Part shown: piece by piece, positions 17,346-23,398 of the stretch
Position numbering within the stretch: position 1 is the stretch's first letter
How the letters are laid out: each line of letters begins with the position of its first letter
Assembly: GCF_000144915.1 (NCBI RefSeq)
Contig: NC_014374.1
Coordinates: 682,001 to 746,000 of the forward strand
Source of the DNA: Acidilobus saccharovorans 345-15
GTDB lineage: Archaea > Thermoproteota > Thermoprotei_A > Sulfolobales > Acidilobaceae
Direction of reading: 5' to 3'
DNA: 64,000 nt
The notes under the pieces: generated by a model
The model's input: only the letters and a program-made list of their open reading frames with translations
What the model was told of the DNA's origin: nothing
The model's database searches: none
Made by a program: the position numbers and the translations under genes

Positions 17346-17849
17346 TCAGCTCGTCGAGCCCCTGGCCGGGTAGGGGACTATGGGAACCATGAACTTCTCC
17401 TGCAGCTTGGCGAAGAAGTACCTCTTGTAGTAGGCGGCCTCGTTGACGTCAACGTATGCCAGGGCGTTCTCAGGGCACGCCTTGACGCACTGCGGGTCGC
17501 CGCCGCAGAGGTCGCACTTCACGGCCTTCTTCTCGAGGTGGTCAATCGTTATCACTCCGTAGGGGCAGACCTCCACGCACCTCTCGCAGCCGTCGCACCT
17601 TGCCCTGTCTATCGCCACCGAGAACGTGTTGGGGTCCCTGTAGATGGCGTTGTGCGGGCACACTCCGTCCACGGCGCAGAGGCCGCACTGTATGCAGAAT
17701 AGGGGGGCGTCCAGGGGCTCCCTCTCGAGCCTCAGCACGTGGATAGCGGAGAGCTCCGGGTCGAAGACCTTGAAGTGCTCAAAGCTGCAGGCGAGCTCAC
17801 ACCTCCCGCAGCCCGTGCACCTTTCAGGAATGGCAATGAGCTGCTTCAA
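17346..17849 (-). CDS. Ferredoxin-like protein with four [4Fe-4S] motifs
   Basis: 167 residues from TTG 17849, with GGAGG 5 bases upstream. Sixteen Cys form four clusters: CTGCGRCELAC (residues 11-21), CIQCGLCAVDGVC (about 52-64), CDGCERCVEVC and CDLCGGDPQCVKAC. Such polyferredoxin-type subunits of about 17 kDa accompany tungsten aldehyde:ferredoxin oxidoreductases and molybdopterin enzymes in crenarchaea as electron-transfer partners. The AOR gene at 21605 on the same strand is the obvious partner, but the filament locus lies between them. Cytosolic (no signal peptide). Direct pairing is inference. Confidence 0.85.
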   Translation of the reverse strand: MKQLIAIPERCTGCGRCELACSFEHFKVFDPELSAIHVLRLEREPLDAPLFCIQCGLCAVDGVCPHNAIYRDPNTFSVAIDRARCDGCERCVEVCPYGVITIDHLEKKAVKCDLCGGDPQCVKACPENALAYVDVNEAAYYKRYFFAKLQEKFMVPIVPYPARGSTS

Positions 17850-17916
17850 GGGGTCCTCCCAGGGTATCAGGCCGACTAGAGTATTTCAATATATCCACGG
17901 GGGCCCGAAAAGGCTT

Positions 17917-19338
17917 CTAAGGCCCCGCCCAGGCCCACACGAGGCCCCAGTCCGCCGCGTAGAGGTAGCCCGTGCCTGAGCCGACGCCGACGTAGTAGGC
18001 TCCAGCCGCCGGCGGGCTGAAGTAGCTGCCCACGTACTCGCTGAAGGTGGAGTTGTAGAAGGGGTAGTTCAGGTCCACGGCCCTGCCGTATATGTAGCCG
18101 TTGGACGGGTCGTAGGTGACGCACACGAGGACGTAGTCGCCTGGCCCTGGGACCCAGGGGGTCGGGCTCCAGGAGCCGACGCCGTCCCATCCGCTCCACG
18201 GAGGGCCAAGGTTAGGGCTCGGGCTTGGCTCAAAGTTTGCTGTGAGCCCAGCTTTCTTCCCCTTGCCGGCGACGGTGACGCTCACCACCCAGGCGTTCCA
18301 GGGGCCGCTGCTGCCCCCGATGCCCGGGCCCGTGGCCAACGAGAGGTTGTAGTACCAGGCCGGGTCGAACTGGACCACCAGGTAGGAGCCATTGGAGGCC
18401 GGGTACATGACGTCGCCCATGACTGGCGAAGGGGGCTGGCTCAGGCTCTCCGAGGAAACGTATGGTATTGACTGGTTGGCCGCCTTGCCCTGCGGCGCCA
18501 GGAAGAGGTAGAAGTAGACCCCGTGGCCCAGGGCCAGGCTTGGGCTGCTGTAGGTTACCACTGCGGCGATCGTCAGGTTATGCCCTCCTGCATAGCTGTA
18601 GCTCCAGAGGACCGCCCCGGCCGAGGGGGCGTACTGAAGATTGCCGTAGTACTCCTGCAGGTAGCCAGTCATGTCCATTACTGGCTGGGCGGCCGAGCCC
18701 GCGTACCACAGGTCCCAGTAGTAGGCCTCGGCCGCCGAGGGGCCTAGGTCGTAGGGCCACCCGCCGCTTGGCGTGCCGTCATAGTCGCCCTGGTAGTACA
18801 TAGTGGTCTGGAGCGACTGGCCGTCAACGAAGCTCAGCGCCGCCCCCTGGGGCGGCTGGTGGACCGCCGTCCTCAGGCCGTAGACGAAGCTGAGCCCCAG
18901 GGCCGAGGAGGGGCTGAAGGCAAGGCTGCCGGAGAGGCTAACGCTCGACAGCGGGGCGCCGGAGAGCAGGTACAACAGGTAGGTGTCCCCCCTCCGAACG
19001 CTGATGGTAGTCGAGCCCCCTCCAAGGGATATCGTCGCGGTGCCGTTCTCCGCCGCCGTGAACACTGATATGGGCCACTGCAGCTTGTACTCATAGCCCC
19101 GCTGGGCTGGGACCAGGAGCGTGAAGGCGTAGCCGCTTGAGCCCTGAACAGCGCCGTAGTAGAGCACGGAGAGGTTGGGAGCAAACCCGCACGCGGGCGC
19201 CGAGGCCTTATAAACTACAGGGCTTGCCACGGGCTCCAGGCTTACAGCTGCCCTGTAAACTATGATAAGGTCCGCCTCCGCCACCGCCAGGGCGGCGAGC
19301 ACTGCAAATGCTAGCAGCAGCGGGGCTGCCCTCCTCAA
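17917..19338 (-). CDS. Large secreted filament-associated (adhesin-like) protein
   Basis: 473 residues from the TTG at 19338. That start is chosen because GGAGG lies 7 bases upstream and the TTG overlaps the previous gene's stop (TTGA); the frame is open further but would overlap that gene by 58 bases. The signal peptide (about 1-22) ends before DLIIVYRAAVSLEPVASPVV. This N-terminal module of about 65 residues resembles that of the small subunit at 20893 (HIIFVYKEQVNFNAVTPVLF). The rest is rich in Gly, Ser, Tyr and Trp, beta-like, with Asn-X-Ser/Thr sites and no membrane segment. It is last in the four-gene operon, so likely the tip, cap or adhesive component. No known family recognised. Confidence 0.7.
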   Translation of the reverse strand: MRRAAPLLLAFAVLAALAVAEADLIIVYRAAVSLEPVASPVVYKASAPACGFAPNLSVLYYGAVQGSSGYAFTLLVPAQRGYEYKLQWPISVFTAAENGTATISLGGGSTTISVRRGDTYLLYLLSGAPLSSVSLSGSLAFSPSSALGLSFVYGLRTAVHQPPQGAALSFVDGQSLQTTMYYQGDYDGTPSGGWPYDLGPSAAEAYYWDLWYAGSAAQPVMDMTGYLQEYYGNLQYAPSAGAVLWSYSYAGGHNLTIAAVVTYSSPSLALGHGVYFYLFLAPQGKAANQSIPYVSSESLSQPPSPVMGDVMYPASNGSYLVVQFDPAWYYNLSLATGPGIGGSSGPWNAWVVSVTVAGKGKKAGLTANFEPSPSPNLGPPWSGWDGVGSWSPTPWVPGPGDYVLVCVTYDPSNGYIYGRAVDLNYPFYNSTFSEYVGSYFSPPAAGAYYVGVGSGTGYLYAADWGLVWAWAGP

Positions 19339-20093
19339 GCCCTGCGCCTCCTTATGTACCTGGCCCTCCTCATTATCTCCCTGGCTGCCCACGGCTTCGT
19401 CCTCTCCAGCTCATCTATGCCTACCCCGAAGATCCTCCTGGCCTCCCTGTCGGCGACCTCCCTTACCGGCTCCCCCTCGTCATATATGTGCGACCTGGCC
19501 TCGCCGTAGCCCGGCGAGTACCTTGAGTAGAGCTCAACCGCCCTGGCGAGCCCCGGGCTCCTCCTCCTGAGCTCCTCAAGGCCGACGCCGAACCTCCTCC
19601 TCGCCAGGGCCTCAGCGGCCTCAACAATCTTCCTGACCTCGCCCCAGGCCGAGGCAGCCAAGGCGGCCCCCGCTGAAGCCGTGAGCAGGGCCACGGAGGC
19701 GTAGTTGAGGCTGACCGAGGCGCCGGGCACCACGAGGGCTGACGAGGGGCCGTAGTTTATGGTGAGGCCCCCGAGCCCCCTGAGGCCCTCGGCCACCTCC
19801 AGGGCTGCGGTGAAGTAATAGGATAGGGCCGCGAGCGCGAGGTAGGCCGCCCTGGCCCTCCTGTTAAACGCTATGTAAACTGCTGAGGCCCCCAGGAGCA
19901 CCTCGGGGACGGCCATGGGAGGGTAGACTGTTACCTTGGAGTAGGTGGGCGTGACTACCCTTGAGACCAGGCCAACTCCTATGTAGTAGTACCTCGCGTC
20001 TGCGACCACCGCCGGCAGGGCGGCCAAGGCGCCGAGGGAGGCTATTATCAGGGACGCGGCGGCCGCGGCCAAGATCCTAGCCCTGGTAGCCAA
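19335..20093 (-). CDS. Four-segment membrane protein with duplicated cytosolic motif
   Basis: 252 residues. Hydrophobic segments at about 10-30, 61-77, 82-99 and 130-149 place the C-terminal 100 residues in the cytosol. That tail contains a duplicated 29-residue unit: RRRFGVGLEELRRRSPG (within 163-191) and ARRIFGVGIDELERTKPW (within 217-245). The gene overlaps the upstream gene by 17 bases and the downstream start by 4, so translation is probably coupled. In a filament operon it could be an assembly platform or export gate, but it resembles neither the SipW-type signal peptidases nor the type IV pilus platforms I know. The role is inference. Confidence 0.6.
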   Translation of the reverse strand: MATRARILAAAAASLIIASLGALAALPAVVADARYYYIGVGLVSRVVTPTYSKVTVYPPMAVPEVLLGASAVYIAFNRRARAAYLALAALSYYFTAALEVAEGLRGLGGLTINYGPSSALVVPGASVSLNYASVALLTASAGAALAASAWGEVRKIVEAAEALARRRFGVGLEELRRRSPGLARAVELYSRYSPGYGEARSHIYDEGEPVREVADREARRIFGVGIDELERTKPWAAREIMRRARYIRRRRA

Positions 20094-20817
20094 GGAGGCC
20101 CACCTCCTGCGTCACGTTGCCGTAAGGTGAGATGTAGGTGACGTTGGCCAGGGCCCTGATCTGGTAGACGTCCCCTGGCCTCAGCGCGCTAAGATCCTCA
20201 TAGCTGCAGTTCAGCAGCTGAAGCTTGACGGTCCCCTGGCCGGCCGGCGCCAGTGCCCTGGGGGTCACGCACCCTGAGAGCGCCAGGGCGGACAGGTTGT
20301 AGTTTATGTAGGTGACCTGACCCGCGGAGATCATAACGGGGAACGGCGAGACGTAGCTCAGGAACAGGAGCGGCTCGCCGTCCTCGAAGGTTACGTTAAC
20401 GGGCCTCAGCGACATGACCGCCGTGACCAGCCTCTCGAAGTATGAGATCACGTAGCCCCTGTCGCCCAGGGACACGTTGACAGCGAACCTGGCCTCAGAG
20501 CCCACCAGCTGGGGCTGGAGGGGCAGCGAGACAGTGTTGATTCCGCAAGTCGCGTTAAAGGTGCTGTAGCCCACCACCCTGTCGCCCAGGTAGACCTCCA
20601 CTGAGCCCCCGAGGGGCCTCACGCGGCAGTCGCTTATCGTTATGTTAACGTAAAGCCTGTCGCCTACGCCGCTGACGTTAACCAGGCTGACGTTAAACGG
20701 GGGCTCGGGCAGGGGGCGGCCAAGGGGTCCCAGGTACCTCAGCACTACAAGCGCGCCTAGGACCGAGACCACTATTACAACGGCGGCGTAAGCGTAGTTG
20801 ACCTCATCGTTGCCCAA
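20077..20817 (-). CDS. Membrane-anchored extracellular beta-rich protein
   Basis: 246 residues from TTG 20817. One N-terminal membrane anchor (about 9-28), then an extracellular domain of about 215 residues with many Asn-X-Ser/Thr sites, alternating beta-type sequence (FNVSLVNVSGVGDRLYVNIT) and a few Cys that could pair. Second gene of the filament operon, 75 bases after the subunit gene. By position it could anchor the filament to the membrane or act as a minor subunit or chaperone. No family recognised. Confidence 0.6.
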   Translation of the reverse strand: MGNDEVNYAYAAVVIVVSVLGALVVLRYLGPLGRPLPEPPFNVSLVNVSGVGDRLYVNITISDCRVRPLGGSVEVYLGDRVVGYSTFNATCGINTVSLPLQPQLVGSEARFAVNVSLGDRGYVISYFERLVTAVMSLRPVNVTFEDGEPLLFLSYVSPFPVMISAGQVTYINYNLSALALSGCVTPRALAPAGQGTVKLQLLNCSYEDLSALRPGDVYQIRALANVTYISPYGNVTQEVGLLGYQG

Positions 20818-20892
20818 GGCTGCCCCCTGCCGCCCTTTAAGGCCTCCTTCTAGTAAGCAGGGCAGCGCGAACGTAAAAGGGGCCGTGAGACG

Positions 20893-21477
20893 TCACGACG
20901 ACGTTACGTTCTCGACCTCAAGGTACAGGGTTAGGGTGCCGCTGCTGCCATACGGCACTGGTATGGTAGGGAGCACCTTGAAGTCAACGTAATACGTTGT
21001 GCCCTGGGTCAACGTCGCAGTGCCAGAGGCCGTGCAGGCTGAAGTCGACGGTGTTATAGTTATGTTCTGCCCCTGGCCGGGGCTGCTGTCGGTGGTTGGA
21101 TAGACCACGAGCGTCACGCTGGTCAAAGTGGCTGAGCCCGTGTAGCTGCAAGAGGCCACCGAGAGCTCCGGGGTGCCTTGCCCGAAGGCGTTGTTGACGT
21201 AGAGCTCAAGGGCCTGATACACGTACTCGTAGGTCGCGTTAGTCACTGGTATGGTAAGCTGTATGAAAGCCCCGCTCTGGCCCGTCTTGCCCGTCACATT
21301 ATATAAGCTCAGCTGGACGGCTGCTGCCTCGGGGCCGGGCTTGAAGAGCACCGGCGTTACCGCGTTGAAGTTAACCTGCTCCTTGTAGACAAATATGATG
21401 TGCGCCGCCGCCATGGGGGCCGCCAGGGCCACCGCCAGCAAGGATGCCAGCATGGCTACCTTCAAGTAACCCTTCAT
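20893..21477 (-). CDS. Secreted filament subunit candidate (TasA/AbpA-like)
   Basis: 194 residues. The signal peptide (1 to about 26) ends MAAA before HIIFVYKEQVNFNAVTPVLF. The mature protein of about 168 residues is rich in Thr, Ser, Val and Tyr, beta-type throughout, with one Cys pair (CSYTG and the CTASGTATL segment) and five or so glycosylation sites. Size, Sec-type signal and hydrophobic N-terminal strand are like archaeal bundling-pilin (AbpA), cannula and TasA proteins, which polymerise by inserting the N-terminal strand into the next subunit. It lacks a class III (type IV pilin) signal. First gene of the operon, with its own promoter and GGTGAG ribosome site. Polymerisation is inferred, not shown. 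Confidence 0.62.
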   Translation of the reverse strand: MKGYLKVAMLASLLAVALAAPMAAAHIIFVYKEQVNFNAVTPVLFKPGPEAAAVQLSLYNVTGKTGQSGAFIQLTIPVTNATYEYVYQALELYVNNAFGQGTPELSVASCSYTGSATLTSVTLVVYPTTDSSPGQGQNITITPSTSACTASGTATLTQGTTYYVDFKVLPTIPVPYGSSGTLTLYLEVENVTSS

Positions 21478-21507
21478 GCTCTCACCGCTAAGTGCCTGTT
21501 GGAGCCG

Positions 21508-21517
21508 CTTAAAAACT
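21508..21517 (-). promoter_or_regulatory. Promoter of the filament operon
   Basis: On the reverse strand, AGTTTTTAAG about 35 bases before the ATG, preceded by a purine-rich BRE-like AAAGAA. It is embedded in a strongly AT-rich stretch (21510-21580), unlike the rest of the locus. Confidence 0.5.
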
Positions 21518-21604
21518 TTCTTTTTAATTAATATGTTTTTTCTTAAGAAAAAGTGATTTAAGTATTACTTTAACTCTAATTTCACAGGGGGCAGGTCATG
21601 GCCT

Positions 21605-23398
21605 TCAGCCGCCGGCGGCCTTAAGTATGCCCAGCCTCTCAAGGGTCTCCCTTGTTGGCCTCCCCTCCTCGTCGTAGCCCCTGAGCTTATAGTACGTCAT
21701 AACCATGCGCCTCCACTCCTCCTCAGCCACGACGTACCTCTTGCCATCGAACTCCACGGGCTCATTGAGCCACCTGGGCGGCAGCTTGTCATCCTCTACC
21801 GTGGTCCCGTTCATGTACCTGTGTATAACTATTATCCTCTCTGCCGTCTCCCTCAGCGAGGCCTGGTCGTAGCTGAAGCCGGTCACGGCGTTGAGCACCT
21901 GGACCAGCTCGCTCCAGCCGTAGGCGTTCCTGCCGAACTTGCAGAGCACCGCGCTGTCGTAAATCGCGTTCCTCTCCTCAAGGTCCATGACGGCCCTGAC
22001 CTTCTCCTCGCCCGTGGCCTGCCTGCCCCCGGCCAGCCCAGGTATGTCTATGGCGTAGCCGCTGCTCCACAGGTGGTCCGCGCCCCTCTCCGCTACAGCA
22101 TATGTCAGTATCATGCCCTTCAGCGTCCTCGGGTCGTAGCCCGCAGGTTCAAGGCCCTTGACCTCTATGGCCACCTCGGGGTGCCCCAGGGCCCTGGCGG
22201 CCTCCCTGGTCCCCATGGAGAGCACCTTGCCTATGCCCTCCCTCTTTGCTATGGCCGTTATGAGCTCCCTGAAGCGCTGCGCGTCCCCAAACCTCACGCC
22301 CTCTGATGGGTCCACGTAGCCCTTCTCCGTCAGGTACGCCAGCAGGCCGAGCACGTTGCCAGTGCTTATGGTGTCCAGCCCCACGTCGTCAACCAGGGAG
22401 GCGAGCTGTATAAGCTCGTCCGGGTCCACGACGCCCGTCAGGCCGGCCAAGGCCATTGTGGTCTCGTACTCCAGCTCGTAGTAGCCCCCGTACCTCCTGG
22501 AGGTGACCACCTTGTGGCAGGCCACGGGGCAGTGGAGGCACGTGGCCCTCTTCCCGACGTAGTAGTTCTTGCTGAGCACCTCGTACCACGAGATCCTCCT
22601 CCAGCCCGGGGCCGACACCCCGGTCCAGTAGAGCGAGGGGAAGAAGCCGGTGCCGTTGGCCGCGTCTATGGTGCCCAGGGTCCCGTTGTCCCTGTAGCTT
22701 TTAGCTGCCGTCGCGAGCCTCTGGGTCATGTAGCTTATCATTGACCAGGTCCTCTCGGGGTCCGCGACCTCGATGGACCTGCCGCTCGGCACGAAGACTA
22801 CAGCCTTCAGGTTCTTTGAGCCCATGACCGCGCCTCCGCCTGACCTGCCGAACTGCCTCCACGTCTCATGATTTATGGAGGCGAATGGCACCAGGTTCTC
22901 CCCCGCCGGGCCTATGACCGCCACCGCCGCCTCCTGGCCGTGGACCTCCTTAAGCGCCCTCTCGGCGTCGAAGGTCCCCATGCCCCAGAGGCCCGAGGCG
23001 TCCCTGACCTCGGCCCTGCCCCCCTCGACCACTATGTATGAGGGCCTCTGGGCCCTGCCCGTCACCATTAGCACGTCGGCCCCCGCGTACCTCATTATCA
23101 CAGCCAGGGAGCCCCCCACCGTGGAGTAGCTCCACCTCCTGCTCAGCGGCGAGAAGAACACGGCCGTGGCCCTCGACGAGAGGGGTATTCCGGCGCCTGA
23201 GAGGGGGCCGGACGCAATTATGAGGGGCAGCTCCGGCGAGAGGGGGTCCTGGGGCCTGCCGTAGCCCCCCTTAAGCGCGAGCAGGAGTCCTATGCCCCTG
23301 CCCCCCAGGTAGGCCCTCACGTCCTCGTCCCTCAGCTCGTCGTACTTCACCTCGCCGCTGCCCAGGTCGACCCTTATGAGCCTGCTGAAGCTCCCCAA
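21605..23398 (-). CDS. aor: Tungsten aldehyde:ferredoxin oxidoreductase
   Basis: 597 residues, full length for the family. It oxidises aldehydes to carboxylic acids with ferredoxin as acceptor, using a tungsten bis-pyranopterin and one [4Fe-4S] cluster. The N-terminal domain has VRAYLGGRGIGLLLAL and IIASGPLSGAGIPLSSRATA, both typical. Cluster ligands are CLHCPVAC (about 287-294) with the fourth Cys in VLCKFGRN (about 485). The pterin loop GRSGGGAVMGSKNLKAV is present. Start TTG with a G-rich ribosome site. In a peptide- or sugar-fermenting archaeon it disposes of aldehydes; the polyferredoxin at 17346 is the likely partner. Which aldehyde is unknown. Confidence 0.93.
   Translation of the reverse strand: MGSFSRLIRVDLGSGEVKYDELRDEDVRAYLGGRGIGLLLALKGGYGRPQDPLSPELPLIIASGPLSGAGIPLSSRATAVFFSPLSRRWSYSTVGGSLAVIMRYAGADVLMVTGRAQRPSYIVVEGGRAEVRDASGLWGMGTFDAERALKEVHGQEAAVAVIGPAGENLVPFASINHETWRQFGRSGGGAVMGSKNLKAVVFVPSGRSIEVADPERTWSMISYMTQRLATAAKSYRDNGTLGTIDAANGTGFFPSLYWTGVSAPGWRRISWYEVLSKNYYVGKRATCLHCPVACHKVVTSRRYGGYYELEYETTMALAGLTGVVDPDELIQLASLVDDVGLDTISTGNVLGLLAYLTEKGYVDPSEGVRFGDAQRFRELITAIAKREGIGKVLSMGTREAARALGHPEVAIEVKGLEPAGYDPRTLKGMILTYAVAERGADHLWSSGYAIDIPGLAGGRQATGEEKVRAVMDLEERNAIYDSAVLCKFGRNAYGWSELVQVLNAVTGFSYDQASLRETAERIIVIHRYMNGTTVEDDKLPPRWLNEPVEFDGKRYVVAEEEWRRMVMTYYKLRGYDEEGRPTRETLERLGILKAAGG

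Follow-up and report, generated by a model that had tools for sequence, protein, structure and literature searches.

Organization of the locus

The window analysed here is a stretch of 64,000 nucleotides from Acidilobus saccharovorans 345-15 (NC_014374.1, positions 682,001 to 746,000), a closed genome of 1,496,453 bases. It carries four open reading frames, all on the minus strand and in the order A-B-C-D, with the following features (positions are those of the window):

17850 to 21604, minus strand: whole operon, flanked by an aldehyde ferredoxin oxidoreductase-like gene on one side and the 4Fe-4S partner of that gene on the other
21508 to 21520, minus strand: TATA-like promoter element GAAAGTTTTTAAG upstream of A, with a T-rich counterpart at similar distance in the related loci L007, L008 and L009
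20893 to 21477, minus strand: gene A, 194 aa, thread-type pilin (profile A1 against PDB 7pnb and 8rzl; orthologs in the genus)
20077 to 20817, minus strand: gene B, 246 aa, TTG start, homolog of Saci_0407/0408 (hhalign; co-occurrence with thread pilins)
19335 to 20093, minus strand: gene C, 252 aa, TTG start, four hydrophobic helices and an Arg-rich cytoplasmic tail of ~100 aa
17917 to 19338, minus strand: gene D, 473 aa, pilin-domain and lectin-like protein, proposed filament tip or cap (hhalign; cassette exchange)

An earlier sequence-only reading of this DNA had described four co-directional genes in this order, and both the genes and the spacings that it gave (75 bases for A/B, -17 for B/C and -4 for C/D) are exact. 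The corresponding spacings in relatives are 56/-17/-17, 56/-17/-20 and 13 to 16/-71 to 4/-23 to -20, and all A-B-C-D loci measured have an overlap of 4 to 23 bases between C and D. Since orthologous four-gene sets are found in the same order at 42-57% identity, chance open reading frames are very unlikely. The numbers of sequons (4 in A, 10 in B, 0 in C and 7 in D) agree with the predicted topology of the proteins.

Pfam and NCBIfam searches returned no family covering any of the four proteins. As the sequence-only reading had remarked of SipW-like peptidase, class III signal and ATPase, neither a signal peptidase, nor a class III signal, nor a secretion ATPase is present among the open reading frames and family matches of the locus; a SipW-like peptidase does occur in the related type II loci described below. 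The traits of type IV pili (class III signal, secretion ATPase and platform protein) are likewise absent from the four genes, as judged from family searches and inspection.

Reading of their sequences names the flanking genes as an aldehyde ferredoxin oxidoreductase-like gene (21605-23398) and a 4Fe-4S gene (17346-17849). The sister genome G003 has orthologs of these two genes (82% and 93% protein identity) directly next to each other, and its thread operon at another position. This empty site, where the window has its operon, indicates that the operon changed its genomic position. Mobile-element genes were not seen beside the window operon.

Protein A and the archaeal thread

The thread is a strong and thin adhesive fibre known from Sulfolobus. 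In S. acidocaldarius, it is independent of the class III peptidase and assembled by donor-strand complementation (PMC9715654, PMC11607397), the N-terminal strand of the subunit Saci_0406 filling the groove of the neighbouring subunit (PMC9715654). Homologs were already reported in Vulcanisaeta and Acidianus, Acidilobus being unmentioned there (PMC9715654). Two segments of A can be aligned with functional segments of Saci_0406:

21403 to 21477, minus strand: predicted Sec signal peptide of A, residues 1-25, with cleavage AAA/H26, placed by inspection and aligned with the signal peptidase I site (LVA/DV) of Saci_0406
21358 to 21402, minus strand: putative N-terminal donor-strand segment of A, HIIFVYKEQVNFNAV, aligned with the beta-1 tail through which Saci_0406 complements the subunit next to it

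The Sec-type signal ending in AAA bears out the earlier proposal that A is Sec-secreted, and cleavage at this site leaves 169 mature residues, one more than the 168 first counted. Inspection and the alignment with the Saci_0406 site thus both point to a signal of the Sec/signal peptidase I kind and not of the class III (PibD) kind. A has orthologs with 53-54% identity in two of the three other genomes of the genus, and a five-sequence profile of A retrieves the Saci_0406 thread subunit in PDB entries 7pnb (E=2.2e-18) and 8rzl (6e-13). The alignment with 7pnb covers nearly the whole chain, from the signal peptide to the C-terminus, and includes the N-terminal strand, the aromatic and hydrophobic tail of A being conserved and colinear with that of 7pnb. 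Judged from these profile matches, A is a member of the archaeal thread (Saci_0406) family.

In Saci_0406, an isopeptide bond from Asn57 to the N-terminal amino group has been reported. A and most Sulfolobaceae pilins lack the segment carrying Asn57, so that this bond characterises the type member rather than the family as a whole. Acidilobus pilins have a conserved Cys pair (110/148) that could form a disulfide in place of this bond.

The sequence-only reading had assigned the locus to a TasA/AbpA-like type, an assignment that this comparison does not support. With the A profile, no TasA or AbpA chain (their presence in the library being presumed) and no CanA chain is listed up to E=10 by sequence comparison, the sole sequence listed besides Saci_0406 being an unrelated hydrolase (E=5.7). 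A biofilm filament of the TasA/AbpA kind would share with the thread a probably similar mechanism, in which Sec-exported beta subunits are joined by strand donation, and the SipW-like peptidases of the related type II loci speak in its favour; since the locus itself has no SipW-like gene and Saci_0406 is the only filament structure found by the profile search, we consider it very improbable. The broader idea of a self-assembling donor-strand beta filament outside the type IV superfamily stands as the best reading, the family now being, from its sequences, that of the thread. A secreted enzyme or a solute-binding system would fit four proteins falling outside the Pfam and NCBIfam families, but it is scarcely credible given the strong match of A to a solved filament subunit and the conserved synteny with thread genes. 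The four genes most likely build a thread fibre as known from Sulfolobus.

Proteins B and C as candidates for the membrane part

B is predicted to be a membrane-anchored protein with tandem Ig-like domains:

20734 to 20811, minus strand: transmembrane helix of B, residues 3-28 (AlphaFold2, mean pLDDT 67)
20428 to 20694, minus strand: first Ig-like beta domain of B, residues 42-130 (AlphaFold2, seven strands, pLDDT mostly 77-89)
20092 to 20412, minus strand: second beta domain of B, residues 136-242, of low confidence (AlphaFold2, pLDDT about 36-67)

The AlphaFold2 model has a single membrane helix followed by two beta domains of seven strands each in tandem, the first of them confident, and it retrieves generic tandem Ig and FnIII proteins with Foldseek. 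The single N-terminal helix in B and the four hydrophobic helices in C agree with the previous description of a bitopic and a four-helix protein. A decayed SipW-like peptidase was considered for B and gave no profile match; LEA14-like or named Ig families, suspected by eye, were dropped as well since Pfam results were inconsistent and Foldseek returned only generic Ig/FnIII domains.

Profile comparison relates Acidilobus B to the family of thread neighbours in Sulfolobaceae (hhalign probability 92.6, E=4.6e-7, 195 columns) and to the merged Sulfolobaceae/Vulcanisaeta family (probability 97.3, E=2.3e-11). Furthermore, the B profile matches 13 of the 214 genomes of the order, namely all 12 with a type I pilin (see below) and, as a fragment, one 87%-complete draft. 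On this evidence, B is homologous to the protein that accompanies thread pilins in 12 of 12 such genomes of the order. In S. acidocaldarius, B is split into two frames by one extra T in a run of T, as compared with the intact gene of a sister genome, in agreement with the report that Saci_0407 and 0408 are fused in relatives (PMC9715654).

Orthologs of C, 51-52% identical, occur at the same place within the genus, with a 17-base overlap with B, and a gene of similar length with four helices occupies the C position in the type I loci of Acidilobus and Vulcanisaeta; a four-helix gene lies nearby in Sulfolobaceae. There, the form of C with the membrane part is found in exactly the nine Sulfolobaceae genomes that have a type I pilin. 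Homology between Acidilobus C and the Sulfolobaceae/Vulcanisaeta C is not supported, since hhalign gives E about 0.09-0.1 and window-shuffled controls equal the score in 3-10% of cases. Their agreement is limited to position, length and helix pattern, and Acidilobus C is a positional counterpart only of the C found elsewhere.

The sequence-only reading had called the membrane part unfamiliar. Its function is indeed unassigned, the S. acidocaldarius genes 0404, 0407 and 0408 being called only "elusive" in the thread papers (PMC9715654, PMC11607397), but the genes are in part known as neighbours of the Sulfolobus thread pilin. B and C are good candidates for the membrane part of the thread.

Protein D, a pilin domain with a lectin-like region

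D can start at the TTG at 19338 (473 aa) or at an upstream GTG (491 aa); the TTG start is preferred. Two regions are predicted:

18913 to 19272, minus strand: mature N-terminal donor-strand motif DLIIVYRAAVSLEPV and thread-pilin domain (pilin profile; hhalign against A)
17917 to 18855, minus strand: C-terminal lectin-like beta region (PA14, GLEYA and peanut lectin matches)

The pilin profile matches D in the window (3.5e-4) and in G003 (6e-9), and the N-terminus of D aligns with A over 80 columns (hhalign probability 95.6, E=1.1e-8). Mature D starts with DLIIVY, which resembles HIIFVY of A. The C-terminal region gives weak but recurrent matches to PA14 (E=6e-6 for one homolog, above the gathering score), GLEYA (0.007) and peanut lectin (0.022), and structure prediction from two sequences yields a pLDDT of 29 and no usable fold. 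D is thus predicted to join a thread-pilin domain that has an N-terminal strand motif of its own to a C-terminal lectin-like region. The large secreted protein described earlier is not a generic one, the pilin domain and donor-strand motif at its start having been missed.

D also aligns with Vulcanisaeta D (hhalign E=2e-108) and, over 351 columns (E=3.6e-16), with the L046/L047 operon protein encoded directly after Saci_0405 in S. acidocaldarius (G085), which we infer from gene order to be Saci_0404. The window locus has no open reading frame for a stand-alone Saci_0405-like cap. We do not take such a cap as defining, since the capping role of Saci_0405 is itself a proposal and a domain of this type is present in D.

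A could also be the thread pilin while D is not the tip but a lectin-like secreted protein in its own right, or a minor subunit. Indeed, some Sulfolobaceae proteins that have a predicted membrane helix and no connection with threads carry the lectin-like domain of D but lack the pilin part, and several thread loci have no D adjacent to them. On the other hand, the signal peptide and the donor-strand motif are limited to the D forms of thread operons and to one unlinked copy (L137, in a genome with a thread locus), and D overlaps C in each A-B-C-D locus measured; we regard a role away from the tip as distinctly unlikely.

Distribution of related loci

Pilin-like matches were obtained in 42 of the 214 genomes of the order, in loci of two types. 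Within the order, type I loci are found in Acidilobus and in nine Sulfolobaceae genomes. Type II loci comprise a pilin, a large donor-strand-like protein, a four-helix protein and a SipW-related archaeal signal peptidase I (TIGR02228, E about 1e-14 to 9e-21). A scan of contigs with the pilin profile returned three loci, and the phylum sample revealed a third type I set, in another family, which was recognised via locus L074 of Vulcanisaeta distributa.

The order pilin-B-C-D recurs in the relatives of Acidilobus and in the Vulcanisaeta family with variable flanking genes. Order and strand are those of the window in L074, L121, L122, L126, L127, L129 and L130, where the genes overlap, touch or nearly touch, but A, B and C are there only 24-37% identical to the Acidilobus (L009) proteins and D belongs to a type other than that of the window. 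The four-gene thread set therefore recurs in two distant lineages. Many Sulfolobaceae thread loci have no D adjoining the pilin, which counts against reading the four genes as a complete operon.

Type II loci of other Thermoproteota (e.g. L053, L060, L062 and L133) resemble the window locus by their distant pilin relatives (7pnb at 3.6e-5), their large donor-strand-like protein and their four-helix protein, and differ from it in having a dedicated archaeal signal peptidase I where the window has B. No homology was found between B and this peptidase, nor between the two C families.

Exchange of the D cassette

Comparison of the Acidilobus loci L007 and L009 shows A, B and C to be 78, 94 and 88% identical, the pilin domain of D 33% and its C-terminal domain 45%; at the DNA level, about 87-94% identity gives way to 47% at the C/D junction. 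L009 belongs to a closed genome, and its D matches a D of the Vulcanisaeta family with 74% identity across 464 residues; for the A, B and C proteins of these two loci, identity is only 36, 28 and 24%. In the trees for the pilin and for B, the Acidilobus sequences are a separate clade, apart from the Vulcanisaeta group, and L009 D falls inside Vulcanisaeta D (87/98); the window D is a long branch. The window D is of the alpha type and its divergence is in line with that of A, B and C. Genome G001 has two thread loci with different D types, L007 being on a small contig where a mixed population is possible.

At the level of sequence, the loci reveal an A-B-C-D set that is inherited together and in which D is replaceable as a unit, and D looks like a cassette exchanged between distant archaeal lineages. 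The [VI][IV][FY]xY-like tail common to A and D would explain how a foreign D fits a native shaft. We read A-B-C-D as a thread system that is portable and whose tip adhesin can be exchanged.

Proposed mechanism and polarity

Assembly, capping and orientation of the thread are open questions in the thread papers (PMC9715654, PMC11607397). Our main reading, to which we give a probability of roughly three in four, is that the locus is a complete thread operon in which A forms the donor-strand fibre, D its distal carbohydrate-binding tip, and B and C the membrane base. Weighing against it are the weak profile matches behind the lectin-like region of D, the missing Asn57 segment of A, the absence of a stand-alone Saci_0405-like cap and the lack of recognised homology between C and its counterparts elsewhere. 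A would be exported by Sec, cleaved by the general signal peptidase I and N-glycosylated, and its N-terminal strand would then occupy the groove of the adjacent A, so that subunits line up head to tail in a fibre built without ATPase. B, with its anchored tandem Ig-like domains, and C, with its four helices and cytoplasmic tail, would constitute a base where arriving subunits are held and the fibre is anchored. The tails of A would point toward the cell, with new subunits added at the base, and the strand of D would be donated to the last A so that the carbohydrate-binding head ends the fibre. This polarity is favoured since an adhesin serves best at a distance from the cell. A swap of D would then alter the binding target of the fibre.

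The opposite placement would have D proximal to the cell, with its lectin-like head attaching the fibre to glycans of the S-layer and the A tails pointing outward. A proximal cap is permitted by the published model (PMC9715654), and the S-layer, being glycosylated, could be bound by a lectin. However, B and C already provide a membrane base, and the exchange of D between classes is easier to reconcile with a head directed at variable external surfaces than with one directed at the S-layer of the cell itself, even if exchange of an S-layer ligand would work as well; we consider this placement unlikely. Returning to the distal tip, the reading can be extended to pilin-B-C-D as the whole portable thread machine, with D swapped across archaeal classes while shaft and base are kept, the adhesin at the C-terminus of D setting the polarity with tails cellward, and B and C being the missing assembly base. 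We hold this extension tentatively, at somewhat less than even odds; the swap of D with retention of shaft and base would be possible because one donor-strand motif serves all thread subunits.

The comparison gives an assignment to genes 0404, 0407 and 0408, with B as an invariant partner and D as a pilin-lectin tip candidate, and the tip hypothesis is directly testable in S. acidocaldarius, an organism with genetics. Neither these roles of D, B and C nor an exchange of tips turned up in the literature searched, most subscription journals lying outside it. Bacteria diversify adhesion by swapping fibre tips. If tip exchange across archaeal classes is true, archaea would do likewise.

Comparison with other fibres

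The window operon shares with the S. acidocaldarius thread the pilin family, a Sec signal followed by a [VI][IV][FY]xY-type N-terminal strand, an adjoining B gene (Saci_0407/0408) and a D homolog in the pilin operon (at the position of Saci_0404). It differs from it by the lack of a stand-alone Saci_0405-type cap, of a MinD-like gene and of the Asn57 segment of the proposed isopeptide bond, by a mature N-terminus with His instead of Asp, by having all four genes in one direction, and by a C that is unrelated or too diverged to be recognised. By sequence, it is thus a thread-family variant that lacks a separate cap and the isopeptide partner.

Chaperone-usher pili with a FimH-type tip offer an analogy, and no more than that, in their fusion of pilin domain and lectin head at the end of the fibre; the window system differs from them by the reversed order, the pilin domain coming first, and by the absence of an usher. 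More speculatively, B might be viewed as the counterpart of the chaperone in these pili.

Genomic context and variation of thread loci

In the window, the thread operon (17346-23398 with its borders) is flanked on one side by an aldehyde ferredoxin oxidoreductase-like gene and on the other by a 4Fe-4S gene, both named from sequence, and the same two genes adjoin each other in the sister genome G003 (compared at locus L143), which presents an empty site. Another Acidilobus genome assembly (G001) has two thread loci, L007 and L008, whose pilin (A) and membrane-anchored Ig-like protein (B) are 85-94% identical but whose lectin-like proteins (D) differ in type. Each of the two loci is followed downstream by a small retropepsin-like ORF.

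Several Sulfolobaceae thread loci have a MinD/ParA-like ATPase gene adjoining C, the four-helix membrane protein gene:
L010, 5037-5618
L040, 5412-5999
L041, 899-1486
L042, 5668-6300
None is present in the window's thread locus. This ATPase could possibly position threads on the cell.

Type II loci (L053, L060, L062, L064 and L131-L134) combine a distant thread pilin, an adhesin-like gene, a SipW-like signal peptidase and a four-helix protein. The latter carries adhesin-like similarity in L131, L132 and L134, the adhesin-like part being fused to it in L132 and L134.

Split genes and isolated domains

Although Sulfolobus acidocaldarius is a thread-making strain, its B gene (L047, 9152-9983) is split into two frames by a single extra T within a T run, as compared with the intact gene of a sister genome (L046, 9071-9901); this may reflect sequencing error, slippage or real loss. 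In the Vulcanisaeta family, several pilin genes (among L127-L130 and L074) and some D genes are likewise broken into two frames, at points varying from gene to gene, and phase variation, decay or sequencing errors may be responsible.

In a MAG labelled Candidatus Rehaiarchaeum (Parvarchaeota), one 3.5 kb contig (L072) encodes a thread pilin together with a Saci_0405-like protein; gene transfer or binning contamination may account for this. Finally, Sulfolobaceae proteins at L138-L142 display the lectin-like domain of D and a predicted membrane helix without the thread-pilin domain.
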